Source of the DNA: Methylophilus sp. 13
GTDB lineage: Bacteria > Pseudomonadota > Gammaproteobacteria > Burkholderiales > Methylophilaceae
Length of the DNA: 64,000 nucleotides
Assembly: GCF_015354335.1 (NCBI RefSeq)
Contig: NZ_JADKYR010000002.1
Location: forward strand, 310,001-374,000
Direction of reading: 5' to 3'
This document shows, piece by piece, positions 18,794 to 22,471 of the stretch. A program made the translations under genes and the position numbers. The notes under the pieces were generated by a model that was given only the letters and a program-made list of their open reading frames with translations, had not been told where the DNA came from and did no database searches. Positions within the stretch are counted from its first letter, which is position 1; every line of letters starts with the position of its first letter.

Positions 18794-21040
18794 ATGAAAT
18801 TTAGATTTCCCATTGTGATTATTGACGAAGATTTTCGCTCGGAAAACTCGTCTGGCCTGGGCATCCGGGTGTTGGCCAAAGCGATTGAAGACGAAGGTCT
18901 GGAGGTGCTTGGTGTGACCAGCTACGGCGACCTCACCTCTTTCGCGCAGCAGCAAAGCCGTGCCTCGGCGTTTATCCTGTCAATTGACGATGAGGAAATC
19001 GTTGAAGAGAAACCAGAAGCCATCGAGCAACTGCGTAATTTTGTACAGGAAATCCGTTACCGTAACGAAGAGATTCCGATCTTTTTGCATGGCGAGACCC
19101 GCACCAGCCGCCACATTCCAAACGATGTGCTGCGTGAGTTGCATGGCTTTATCCATATGAACGAGGATACGCCAGAGTTTGTGGCACGCCTGATTATCCG
19201 CGAAGCCAAGGCCTACCTGGACAGCCTGCCACCGCCCTTCTTCAAGGCGCTGACGCATTACGCGGCTGATGGTTCCTACTCCTGGCACTGCCCCGGTCAC
19301 TCCGGTGGCGTCGCGTTTCTGAAATCACCGGTCGGCCAGATGTTCCACCAGTTTTTTGGCGAGAACATGCTACGTGCAGACGTCTGTAACGCCGTTGATG
19401 AGCTCGGTCAATTGCTGGATCATACCGGCCCGGTGGCTGCTTCCGAGCGCAATGCCGCGCGCATTTACAACTGTGATCACCTCTATTTTGTCACTAACGG
19501 CACCTCGACCTCGAACAAGATCGTCTGGAACTCCACCGTCGCGCCTGGTGACATCGTGGTGGTTGACCGTAACTGCCATAAATCCGTATTGCACTCCATC
19601 ATCATGACCGGGGCCGTACCGGTATTCCTGATGCCAACGCGTAACCACTTTGGCATTATCGGCCCGATTCCGAAAAGCGAGTTTGCCTGGGAAAACATCC
19701 AGAAGAAAATCGAACGCAACCCGTTTGCCACCGACAAAAACGCCAAGCCACGCGTACTGACCATCACGCAATCCACCTATGACGGCGTGCTGTACAACGT
19801 TGAAGAAATCAAGGAAATGCTGGATGGCAAGATCGACACCCTGCACTTCGATGAAGCCTGGCTGCCACACGCGACCTTCCATGACTTTTATGGTGACTAC
19901 CACGCGATTGGCGCAGACCGCCCACGCTGTAAAGAATCCATGGTGTTCTCCACCCAGTCCACGCACAAACTGCTGGCTGGCCTAAGCCAGGCCTCGCAAA
20001 TTCTGGTACAGGATGCTGACCAGAACCGCCTAGACCGCGATGTGTTCAACGAAGCTTATCTGATGCACACCTCTACCAGCCCGCAATACTCGATTATTGC
20101 CAGCTGCGACGTGGCTGCCGCCATGATGGAAGCCCCTGGCGGTACCGCCCTGGTAGAAGAATCCCTCAAAGAAGCCCTGGACTTCCGCCGTGCCATGCGC
20201 AAGGTCGACGAAGAATGGGGCACTGACTGGTGGTTTAAAGTCTGGGGCCCGACTGATTTGTCAGAAGATGGCCTGGAAGAACGAGATGCCTGGATGCTGA
20301 AAGCCAATGAGCGCTGGCACGGCTTTGGCAACCTGGCCGAAGGCTTTAACATGCTGGACCCAATCAAAGCCACCATCATCACCCCCGGACTGGATGTAGA
20401 TGGTGAATTCTCAGAAGAATTTGGCATCCCGGCGGCGATTGTGACCAAGTACCTGGCTGAACACGGCGTGATCGTCGAAAAAACCGGTCTCTACTCGTTC
20501 TTTATCATGTTTACCATCGGCATTACCAAAGGCCGCTGGAACACCATGGTTGCTGCATTACAACAGTTTAAAGACGACTACGACAAAAACCAGCCATTAT
20601 GGAAAGTGTTGCCGGAATTTGTGCAGAAGCATCCACGCTACGAACGCGTCGGCCTCAAAGATTTGTGTACACAAATTCACGAAGTCTACAAAGCCAATGA
20701 CGTCGCCCGCCTGACTACAGAAATGTATCTGTCTGACATGGTTCCAGCCATGAAACCGACGGACGCCTTCTCAAAAATGGCCCACCGCAAAATTGAGCGC
20801 GTGGCCATTGATGAACTCGAAGGCCGCGTGACTGCTGTGCTCTTAACCCCCTACCCACCAGGCATTCCGCTGCTGATTCCAGGTGAACGCTTTAACAAGG
20901 TCATTGTGAACTACCTCAAATTTGCACGCGAATTCAACGAGAAATTCCCCGGCTTTGAGACCGATAACCATGGTTTGGTGAAGCAAGTCGTGGATGGTAA
21001 AGCCGTGTATTACGTGGATTGTGTGCAGCAGGAAGATTAG
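18794..21040 (+). CDS. Orn/Lys/Arg decarboxylase (fold type I, PLP-dependent)
   Basis: Decarboxylates a basic amino acid to a polyamine-type product. The 748-residue protein has the N-terminal response-regulator-like wing domain (FPIVIIDEDFRSENSSG), the PLP-binding core with FVTNGTSTSNKI, LHFDEAWLPHATF, and the Schiff-base lysine Lys392 in STQSTHKLL, then the C-terminal domain (TPYPPGIPLLIPGERF). Length and order match AdiA/LdcC/SpeC-type enzymes. Which substrate is used, and whether the role is acid resistance or polyamine synthesis, cannot be told; no antiporter gene adjoins, which argues mildly for biosynthesis. A good AAGGA site lies 7-8 nt before the ATG. Confidence 0.93.
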   Translation: MKFRFPIVIIDEDFRSENSSGLGIRVLAKAIEDEGLEVLGVTSYGDLTSFAQQQSRASAFILSIDDEEIVEEKPEAIEQLRNFVQEIRYRNEEIPIFLHGETRTSRHIPNDVLRELHGFIHMNEDTPEFVARLIIREAKAYLDSLPPPFFKALTHYAADGSYSWHCPGHSGGVAFLKSPVGQMFHQFFGENMLRADVCNAVDELGQLLDHTGPVAASERNAARIYNCDHLYFVTNGTSTSNKIVWNSTVAPGDIVVVDRNCHKSVLHSIIMTGAVPVFLMPTRNHFGIIGPIPKSEFAWENIQKKIERNPFATDKNAKPRVLTITQSTYDGVLYNVEEIKEMLDGKIDTLHFDEAWLPHATFHDFYGDYHAIGADRPRCKESMVFSTQSTHKLLAGLSQASQILVQDADQNRLDRDVFNEAYLMHTSTSPQYSIIASCDVAAAMMEAPGGTALVEESLKEALDFRRAMRKVDEEWGTDWWFKVWGPTDLSEDGLEERDAWMLKANERWHGFGNLAEGFNMLDPIKATIITPGLDVDGEFSEEFGIPAAIVTKYLAEHGVIVEKTGLYSFFIMFTIGITKGRWNTMVAALQQFKDDYDKNQPLWKVLPEFVQKHPRYERVGLKDLCTQIHEVYKANDVARLTTEMYLSDMVPAMKPTDAFSKMAHRKIERVAIDELEGRVTAVLLTPYPPGIPLLIPGERFNKVIVNYLKFAREFNEKFPGFETDNHGLVKQVVDGKAVYYVDCVQQED

Positions 21041-21093
21041 CTCTTTAGCTTCACTCAGCTATTTTTTACTGAGCTTTCTTTTTTGTGAGCTTC

Positions 21094-21123
21094 AGCAAAG
21101 GCAACTTAATGGTTGCCTTTGCT
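21094..21123 (+). terminator. Terminator-like hairpin after the decarboxylase
   Basis: A perfect 12-bp stem AGCAAAGGCAAC/GTTGCCTTTGCT with a 6-nt loop, followed by a short T tract (ATTTTA). A weaker hairpin with a better T-run (CTCAG/CTGAG, then TTTCTTTTTT) lies just upstream at about 21054-21083. Confidence 0.65.
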
Positions 21124-21141
21124 ATTTTACCGAGACCTCTG

Positions 21142-21175
21142 TTTCGCCTGTGAGCGAGTCACCTTTCTTTGCGTA
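21142..21175 (+). repeat. Structured repeat, truncated copy C
   Basis: TTTCGCCTGTGAGCGAGT followed by CACCTTTCTTTGC matches the first 30-odd bases of the inverted copy at 21541-21771 (TTTCGCCTGTAGGCGAGT, then TACTTTCTGTTGC) and then stops matching. It appears to be a 5' fragment of the same element, 50 bp before the full copy A. Confidence 0.6.
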
Positions 21176-21223
21176 CATTGAACAAGGTTGTATTAGGCAT
21201 TAACAGGATGGGTGAATGATTTA

Positions 21224-21440
21224 TTTCGCCTTTTAGGCGACCGTTCTTTCTTATGCTTGTCCAGAAGAAAGAAGGCAAAGAACAAGACACCCTAGCTTCC
21301 GCTTGTTTCCTGCGTTGCTCGCCAAAACAAGCGGTCACGAAACTCGACCTGGCAGCTCACAAAATACGTGAGCTGCTGCGGGACTCGAACAGTCGCTCCC
21401 TTCTTCCTTGTTTTGGCTGCGCTACTCGGCGCGGCAGATA
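21224..21440 (+). repeat. Structured repeat, copy A
   Basis: About 217 bp, homologous to the opposite-strand copy B. Shared blocks in order are TTTCGCCT-TAGGCGA, a hairpin with loop TGCTTGTCC, CACCC, TTCCnTGnGTTGCT, CGAAACTCGnCCT, CACAAAA, ACTCGAACAG and CTGCGCTACTC. Seen pairing in copy A: TTCTTTCTT/AAGAAAGAA (21244-21252 with 21265-21273), GCAGCTCAC/GTGAGCTGC (21352-21360 with 21368-21376), and a long-range stem GCCAAAACAAG/CTTGTTTTGGC (21321-21331 with 21407-21417). Short open frames here show no coding signs. Confidence 0.8.
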
Positions 21441-21540
21441 GGGGCCCGAAAACCCATGAGCGCCACCGTTTGTGGGCTAAAAAGAAAAGAATTTGAGTTT
21501 TTGATCGGTCCAAATTTCAACAGTGTGAGTTTGACGCGAC

Positions 21541-21771
21541 AAATCCCATCCCATCACGCTGAGTAGCGCAGACGAAGTGGGGGATGTCGGCCATCGGCTG
21601 TTCGAGTTCCGCGGTGGCTTGCGTTTTGTGCAAGCCGCTAGGGCGAGTTTCGATGGACGCCCACTTTGTTAAGCAACACAAGGAAGCCGTAGGCCGTGAT
21701 GGCTGGGTGCCCTCCTCTTTGGTTACTTTCTGTGGGACAAGCAACAGAAAGTAACTCGCCTACAGGCGAAA
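21541..21771 (-). repeat. Structured repeat, copy B (inverted)
   Basis: Second, diverged copy on the opposite strand, with the 3' ends of A and B facing each other across about 100 bp. Its hairpins sit at the same places as in copy A but with different bases: a perfect 12-bp stem GTTACTTTCTGT/ACAGAAAGTAAC (21722-21733 with 21744-21755), GGCTTGC/GCAAGCC (21616-21622 with 21630-21636), a long-range stem ACGAAGTGGG/CCCACTTTGT with one mismatch (21572-21581 with 21660-21669), and the tight TCGCCT/AGGCGA hairpin at its outer end. No transposase or coding frame is present. Confidence 0.8.
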
Positions 21772-21866
21772 AAGAAAGGTGGAATTCCGTAAATATCTAA
21801 GAAGACTTGCAGCAAATTCAATACGCGCTCTTCAATTTTAATCAGATTAGTATTAACCTTGCATGA

Positions 21867-21885
21867 ATTCGGCCTACGCCGGAAT
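21867..21885. repeat. Small REP-like hairpin
   Basis: ATTCGGCCTACGCCGGAAT folds with one bulged base and is followed by GACGA. This is the general shape of the short extragenic palindromes (CATTCCGGC type) scattered in beta- and gammaproteobacterial genomes. Only one copy is in the window. Confidence 0.4.
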
Positions 21886-21919
21886 GACGAAAAACTGGAC
21901 TAACTTGGATTGAGATTAA

Positions 21920-21957
21920 GCATCGAAAAAAGAATAACCTTATTCTTTTTTCGATGC
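21920..21957. terminator. Bidirectional terminator downstream of folA
   Basis: Perfect 18-bp arms (GCATCGAAAAAAGAATAA and complement) with a 2-nt loop, 20 bp past the folA stop. The U-rich arm on the leftward transcript suits termination of the bcp-folA transcript. Confidence 0.75.
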
Positions 21958-21976
21958 ATCAAGCCAAAGGCTTCTA

Positions 21977-22471
21977 TCATCGCCGCTGATAAACCATATC
22001 ACTATAATGCAAGCCATTCTCCGAGGTATGCCCTTCCTCACTCAACAATTCCCACTCATGCATCTCCATTTCCGGAAAAAACGCATCCCCGCCGACATGT
22101 GCATATACCCGCGTAATGTATAGCCGCGTGACATAAGGCAGGCCCTGTGCATACAACTCCGCGCCGCCAATCAGAAAGGGTTCTTCATCACCGGCACAGG
22201 CTGCAAGCGCTTGTGGCAGTGAATGTACAACCTTGGCCCCTTCAACCGCGTATTCAGTATCGCGAGTGACGACTACCGTGGTGCGTCCGGGCAACAAGCG
22301 ACCCAGCGACTCATAGGTTTTGCGGCCCATAATAATGTGATGGCCCATGGTCAGTTGTTTGAAGCGCTTGAGGTCTTCGGGCAGGTGCCAGGGCAACTGA
22401 TTATTGTGACCAATGACACGGTTGTCTGCATGGGCGACGATCAGGGAAAGGGCTTGCATGGTGATACTCAC
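21977..22471 (-). CDS. folA: Dihydrofolate reductase
   Basis: Reduces dihydrofolate to tetrahydrofolate with NADPH, needed for thymidylate and C1-carrier recycling. The 164-residue protein has LIVAHADNRVIGHNNQLPWHLPEDL, with the substrate-binding Asp/Glu as LPEDL, then HHIIMGRKTYES and the glycine pair in FLIGGAELYAQ. The longest frame begins with a GTG that shares its G with the TAG stop of the upstream peroxiredoxin gene; an ATG four codons later (22459) would give MQALSLIVAH and is equally plausible. The two genes are surely cotranscribed. Confidence 0.97.
   Translation of the reverse strand: MSITMQALSLIVAHADNRVIGHNNQLPWHLPEDLKRFKQLTMGHHIIMGRKTYESLGRLLPGRTTVVVTRDTEYAVEGAKVVHSLPQALAACAGDEEPFLIGGAELYAQGLPYVTRLYITRVYAHVGGDAFFPEMEMHEWELLSEEGHTSENGLHYSDMVYQRR

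Follow-up and report, generated by a model that had tools for sequence, protein, structure and literature searches.

A two-armed element between convergent genes

The window, the whole stretch of 64,000 nucleotides of Methylophilus sp. 13 DNA that was analysed, holds an element of 547 bp at 21225-21771. It is flanked by two convergent ORFs, 18794-21040 (+) and 21977-22471 (-), which we take from their sequences to be of the Orn/Lys/Arg decarboxylase type and of the folA type, respectively. The two halves of the element are inverted, diverged copies of a single arm type, and a repeat search recovered this inverted relation over 58 nt at 76% and 47 nt at 74%, together with the h2 hairpins. The features are as follows.

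21225-21771, no strand: whole two-armed element, without cargo, between convergent genes
21225-21444, +: left arm, from outer end to centre h1, h2, pseudoknot linker, P0-P4
21545-21771, -: right arm, from outer end to centre, in inverse orientation to the left arm
21226-21240, +: h1, terminal mini-hairpin of the left arm (TCGCCT..AGGCGA)
21244-21273, +: left-arm hairpin h2, whose loop (TGTC, 21258-21261) is complementary to GACA at 21286-21289 and can form a pseudoknot with it
21290-21302, +: 5' strand of the P0 closing stem, CCCTAGCTTCCGC; partner GCGGCAGATAGGG at 21431-21443
21314-21318, +: P1 strand GTTGC; partner GCTAC at 21421-21425, enclosing a T.T mismatch
21321-21331, +: P2 strand GCCAAAACAAG; partner CTTGTTTTGGC at 21407-21417
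21352-21376, +: P4 hairpin GCAGCTCAC..GTGAGCTGC, flanked by the conserved boxes AACTCG and ACTCGAACAG
21445-21544, no strand: centre, variable, without cargo here; ORFs in some relatives
21142-21175, +: copy C, an outer-tip stub of h1 and the 5' half of h2; genome G002 has the same stub

An earlier note on this DNA had described the two halves as inverted, diverged copies of a structured repeat. The inverted and diverged relation holds, whereas their reading as separate copies does not, as they are the two arms of one element. Both arms also run about 12 nt deeper into the centre than the limits given there, because GCGGCAGATAGGG pairs with CCCTAGCTTCCGC. The stems that it named are present, judged by eye, at the places where it had put them, one ACGAAGTGGG/CCCACTTTGT pair being a wobble, and the fragment that it called copy C is visible as an outer-tip stub.

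Such stubs were also observed next to full elements or another arm at L014, L019, L041, L042, L046, L056, L069, and L072. Seven of the eight stubs found with the profile stop at profile positions 38-46, that is, in the h2 loop or just past it, and copy C of the window resembles them.

The arms share a conserved and covarying fold

Both arms share one conserved fold composed of h1, h2, the pseudoknot, P0, P1, P2, and the hairpin P4; the P0 closing stem emerged when the window arm was folded as RNA on the minus strand. An alignment of 40 arms with 60 named pairs has standard pairs in 88.1% of the cells, compared to 35-47% when the partners are slid by 1-3 columns. Two-sided changes occur in 318 cells and 32 of the 60 pairs, against 27.0 pairs in shuffles (1 of 500 shuffles was as high), and the covariation score is 0.379 against 0.180 (none of 500 shuffles reached it), while further pair types are fewer than in the shuffles (54 versus 66.7), all of these being shuffle statistics that ignore the relatedness of the arms. 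When the columns of 88 arms (19 effective) were ranked by mutual information, many named pairs came near the top, among linked columns that do not pair. Many columns of the arm alignment are invariant. All 88 of the 88 genus arms keep the T.T mismatch of P1, and pyrimidine mismatches lie three steps away from it on either side. Among 40 arms, the third pair of the pseudoknot between h2 loop and linker appears 20 times as C-G, 19 times as U-A, and once as U-G.

We also compared pairing within arms with pairing between loci in 63 class-level arms, hand-picked out of 148 matches by leaving out incomplete, weak, and duplicate ones. Within-arm pairing was better for P0 (p ~4e-9) and for the pseudoknot (p ~1e-6); of the 63 single arms, 17 (P0) and 11 (pseudoknot) fell within the best 5% of mismatched pairs, though the means differ clearly. 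The suggestion of the earlier note that selection acts on a folded single strand is thus strongly supported, by covariation on the 40 arms and by P0 and the pseudoknot on the 63 class-level arms. That note had named a lack of further copies, or a loss of covariation once more copies were aligned, as telling against such a fold; neither was seen, since further copies were found and covariation was kept on 40 and on 63 arms.

Mismatches were used to look at the acting strand. Read from outer end to centre, h2, P0, and P2 of the 63 arms contain 13 G-T against 45 A-C mismatches (h2 3/15; P0 5/14, alone p 0.06; P2 5/16), these three stems having been picked for the recount after the count over all stems of 43 class-level arms was known. 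In those 43 arms the G-T/A-C counts are 6/9 for h1, 5/18 for h2, 29/2 for P1 (28 of the 29 G-T from one column), 5/13 for P2, and 24/8 for the inner pairs; the total over all pairs, 69/50, is opposite to the lean of the three stems. Genus arms gave 24/24 in P2, 2/31 in P4, and 2/0 in the pseudoknot. An A-C mismatch being G-T on the complement, the acting strand tentatively leans centre-to-outer; the lean is tentative because the stems were chosen afterwards and related arms were treated as independent, and because P1, the inner pairs, and the all-pair total point the other way. In other taxa the P4 tip, read centre-to-outer, is GCGNAGC (complement of GCTNCGC), where N is T in 74, G in 25, A in 20, and C in 8 cases; we take this tip to be an unusually stable mini-hairpin.

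Copies in the genome, genus, family, and class

A blastn search of the 3.1 Mb genome with the left arm gave 28 matches including itself, and 23 of the 27 others had E <= 5e-9, the last four being weak. The right arm gave 31 matches in the same genome, including itself and a weak tail. In total, the genome holds eleven two-armed elements including that of the window, three cut by contig ends, plus fragments. A DNA search of 22 genus genomes found the arm, about 200-230 nt long, in 18, the highest number of matches in one genome being 44. The earlier note had proposed a covariance-model search of related genomes. Our model R1 detected arms in 47 of the 80 genomes searched in the family; in the class, where six candidates were scored for each genome, it did so in 94 of 369 genomes, which represent 75 of 272 genera. 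Both searches miss weak matches, which affects the counts of genomes without a match (33/80 and 275/369).

The two-armed build recurs. Six complete class genomes contain 67 arm matches. Among these, 17 pairs face inward at a distance below 1.5 kb, whereas no pair that close faces outward; 33 of the 67 matches are unpaired, and one of these genomes has no pair. Within the genus, a single outward-facing neighbour was found (L064). Convergent ORFs flank 26 of the 34 genus elements whose setting could be decided (37 in all); of the 24 window gaps that measure >=100 bp, 6 have this setting. In this count the loci are partly dependent and ORFs were called from length only.

Occurrence beyond the class

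An exact 21-mer of the core was scanned over named genomes and matched at least 117 stretches; the taxa among the matches listed include Haemophilus, Variovorax, Flavobacterium, Parabacteroides, Lachnospiraceae, Nitrospira, and Desulfosarcina. All 117 listed loci entered the analyses of flanks, neighbouring ORFs, and motif sites, and 80 of them the R1 search. In these 80 loci R1 gave 53 matches at E up to 0.5, the weaker ones doubtful; the E-values on L118-L197 are inflated because the loci had been selected by the 21-mer, and the comparison of motif sites with random places serves as the control. The top R1 score among the named loci belongs to a Methylotenera MAG. An h2-like hairpin with a loop-linker pseudoknot was found at 59 of 124 listed motif sites versus 143 of 2540 random places in the same loci, a flanking stem at 89 of 127 versus 393 of 2540, and both together at 41 of 124 versus 24 of 2540. 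Haemophilus, Flavobacterium, Parabacteroides, and Nitrospirales contain the core motif, which is often accompanied by the same hairpin, pseudoknot, and flanking stem. Identity with the element is thus shown for part of the 21-mer sites, not for every one. The similar blocks in other proteobacteria that the earlier note had mentioned were borne out, and the reach extends to other phyla.

Outside the class, most listed motif sites are solo arms. The flanking ORFs of the Haemophilus records are divergent, and these records probably represent one shared site. The centre of the Haemophilus elements (L131, L141, L163) contains AAGTGCGGT-type words, presumably the DNA uptake signal. Against plasmids and phages, the window element had no match. 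A Variovorax element matched 13 plasmid records, 9 of them larger than 1 Mb and only one spanning most of the element, and had no match in E. coli genomes; another class-level arm matched one plasmid record over 20%.

Site occupancy, rearrangements, and nested insertions

The site of element E4 is a short, element-free gap in genomes G003 and G005 and has a different filling in G010; further sites appear empty, judged by spacing. Some sites are occupied across several species, so persistence is partly by descent. In G000, the genome of the window, and G002, which are of one species, elements E1 and E10 have common flanks; the differences between them lie inside and consist of a module swap and hairpin insertions. 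The swap in G002 left one right arm with weaker pairing, judged by eye. No target-site duplication was seen by eye in the outer 30 bases on each side of 37 elements.

Several further observations concern these sites. At E4 and E9 (L011/L258, L016/L263), the genes of G000 and G002 are nearly identical and the whole intergenic stretch is strongly diverged, with arm types swapped at E4. Hairpin modules of about 33-75 bp lie inside arms of L010, L016, L017, L018, and L071; they look as if they were nested mobile hairpins. The flanks of E3 are 39 kb apart in G002, and in G004 and G010 they are in opposite orientation about 7 kb apart; these differences are rearrangements at elements. A separate short palindromic repeat of the GTGGGCAT..ATGCCCAC type adjoins elements in L010, L014, and L018. 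Six contig ends of G000 (L009, L013, L015, L019, L022, L023) involve an insertion sequence that has an integrase core (PF13683); its ends abut the h2 loop of an element at 6 of 6 junctions read. This insertion sequence seems to target the loop of the h2 hairpin, and these repeats break the G000 assembly.

Centres, cargo, and candidate machinery

Long centres of about 0.9-1.4 kb were read in six elements, centres of 300-420 bp being left out, and all six contain ORFs. Three of the six gave Pfam matches above cut-off (DpnII-MboI nuclease; DUF4760; nucleotidyltransferase with MUG113/T5orf172) and three gave none; according to PADLOC, the L237 nuclease is linked with a defence family. No transposase was recognised in these six. 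L236, a long centre without Pfam match, contains an extra arm fragment. Part of the cargo centres could be genes trapped between solo arms.

No mobilising gene was found inside the elements read or recurrently beside them. When the 583 neighbouring ORFs of the 117 listed loci were clustered for a protein partner, the largest cluster covered 7 loci. Y1_Tnp (PF01797) matched in 9 of 22 genus genomes and in none of G004, G005, G007, G010, G015, and G016, which have 16-44 arm matches; IS110 transposase (PF01548) matched in 2 of 22 and RVT_1 (PF00078) in 6 of 22, neither linked with arm number, and none of the three matched in G004, G005, G010, and G015 (16-40 arm matches). Y1 transposase, reverse transcriptase, and IS110 were accordingly rejected as mobilisers, as none tracks arm number across the 22 genus genomes. 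The REP-associated transposase suggested in the earlier note finds no backing here, with several arm-rich genus genomes lacking a Y1_Tnp match.

At gathering score, Rfam reported only tRNA in the window and nothing for the element, and a relaxed search around the element gave eight weak matches, all below threshold. In 17 loci of other taxa, Rfam gave four matches, all in L164. One match there, Flavo-1 RNA (RF01705) at L164:2973-3081, overlaps the edge of the Flavobacterium arm by about 20 nt. No literature on the element appeared among the titles and abstract starts searched, a coverage that leaves out most subscription journals, and the papers listed for short element stretches used as query were all unrelated.

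Interpretation

The element is non-coding, two-armed, conserved in fold, and widespread yet patchy, and it is most likely a mobile cassette moved in trans. Its fold, build, copy number, and reach are shown, and its movement and mechanism are inferred; that the window element is a copy of such a non-autonomous cassette, recognised as a folded single strand, we hold to be narrowly probable. Machinery acting in trans would recognise the folded single strand, ssDNA or RNA, that each arm forms, and the same machinery may copy or move the whole two-armed unit. The unit would survive mostly in gaps between convergent genes, where no promoter is damaged, and its copies would swap modules and take up additional hairpin and IS insertions. 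Dispersed copies of one build in a single genome argue for mobility, as do the E4 site without the element in G003, G005, and G010, the inward pairs, the covariation, the ORFs in long centres, the convergent setting, and the module swaps within one species. The reading is weakened by the lack of a target duplication visible by eye, of Y1_Tnp, RVT_1, and IS110 matches in four arm-rich genus genomes, and of a protein cluster beyond 7 of the 117 listed loci, and by sites shared across species, the divergent Haemophilus flanks, and the solo arms outside the class. Its wider form, a class of mobile cassettes across several phyla that have their ends marked by a pseudoknotted single-strand fold instead of a sequence and that use a widely available enzyme to ferry defence or toxin-antitoxin type genes between convergent genes, is possible, and we regard it as doubtful.

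The RNA-like fold with its covarying pseudoknot and many invariant columns would also suit arms that are structured ncRNAs with a host function, either sRNAs read outward or 3'-UTR insulators of convergent genes, with descent and gene conversion as the main routes of spread. The position between convergent genes agrees with this, the outer-to-centre arm has the sense of the preceding gene, and P1 has a fixed wobble column that suits the same strand. We consider it unlikely, given the patchy distribution, with 33 of 80 family and 275 of 369 class genomes lacking a match in searches that miss weak ones and dozens of arms in relatives, the element-free sites in related species, and the G002 module swap that weakened pairing by eye; no promoter-like site was found at 21000-22000, a weak argument as 0.6 would be expected by chance. 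Inverted structured ends around a spacer, in many intergenic copies, recall a REPIN, a MITE, or another non-autonomous derivative of a known insertion-sequence family, which we judge quite unlikely because Y1_Tnp, IS110, and RVT_1 are unlinked to arm number, target duplications were not seen, and the pseudoknotted arms are about 220 nt long. The rearrangements at the E3 site (G002, G004, G010) and the equal G-T and A-C mismatches in genus P2 (24 and 24) would agree with a site for recombination or DNA binding that is maintained as a cruciform and acts at the double-strand level. We hold this to be very unlikely, because the pseudoknot, and the several helices that surround conserved unpaired boxes, exceed what a cruciform needs. 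ORFs of 52-75 aa do span the window element, so its short reading frames might encode small proteins; this is hardly credible, as five of these ORFs gave no Pfam family at E up to 10 and the changes follow base pairing.

Under the mobile-cassette reading, the element would belong to a widespread kind of non-coding mobile DNA so far unnamed; as an RNA it would be a widespread RNA, likewise unnamed. Its pseudoknotted fold is kept from the genus of the window to Haemophilus and Bacteroidota despite changed letters, and a genome can hold dozens of arms, yet no Rfam family reaches threshold. The covariance model makes both the mobile-DNA and the RNA question testable.

Relation to known elements

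REPINs or BIMEs with their RAYT transposase resemble the element in plan, as two inverted structured repeats with a spacer, intergenic, multicopy, and presumably mobile in trans. REPINs have a GTAG-type tetranucleotide adjoining the hairpin. Their arms are short, roughly 20-40 nt, whereas the element has arms of some 220 nt that form a pseudoknot and several helices, holds ORFs in some cases, and abounds in several genomes without a Y1_Tnp match. Integron attC cassettes also combine folded single-strand sites with small cargo genes, a likeness by cargo type only; the element differs by two inverted arms per unit and by other motifs. The minimal mobile elements of Neisseria and Haemophilus, which we take to be variable cassettes between conserved genes, are alike in setting, but the cassette here has conserved structured ends. 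The Haemophilus intergenic dyad sequences are presumably a different sequence from the element. These dyads are among the subjects of PMC4144887. MITEs, such as MITEAba12 (PMC6382973), share the non-autonomous, dispersed build with inverted ends. The element has no visible target duplication, no parent IS was found in the long centres read or recurrently beside the arms, and its ends change letters and keep pairs. Ppu-1 of Pseudomonas putida, given in Table 3 of PMC2267715 as 617 bp long with 39 intergenic copies, is similar to the element in length, copy number, and location. Compared by this description, not by sequence, Ppu-1 is possibly an earlier sighting of the element.
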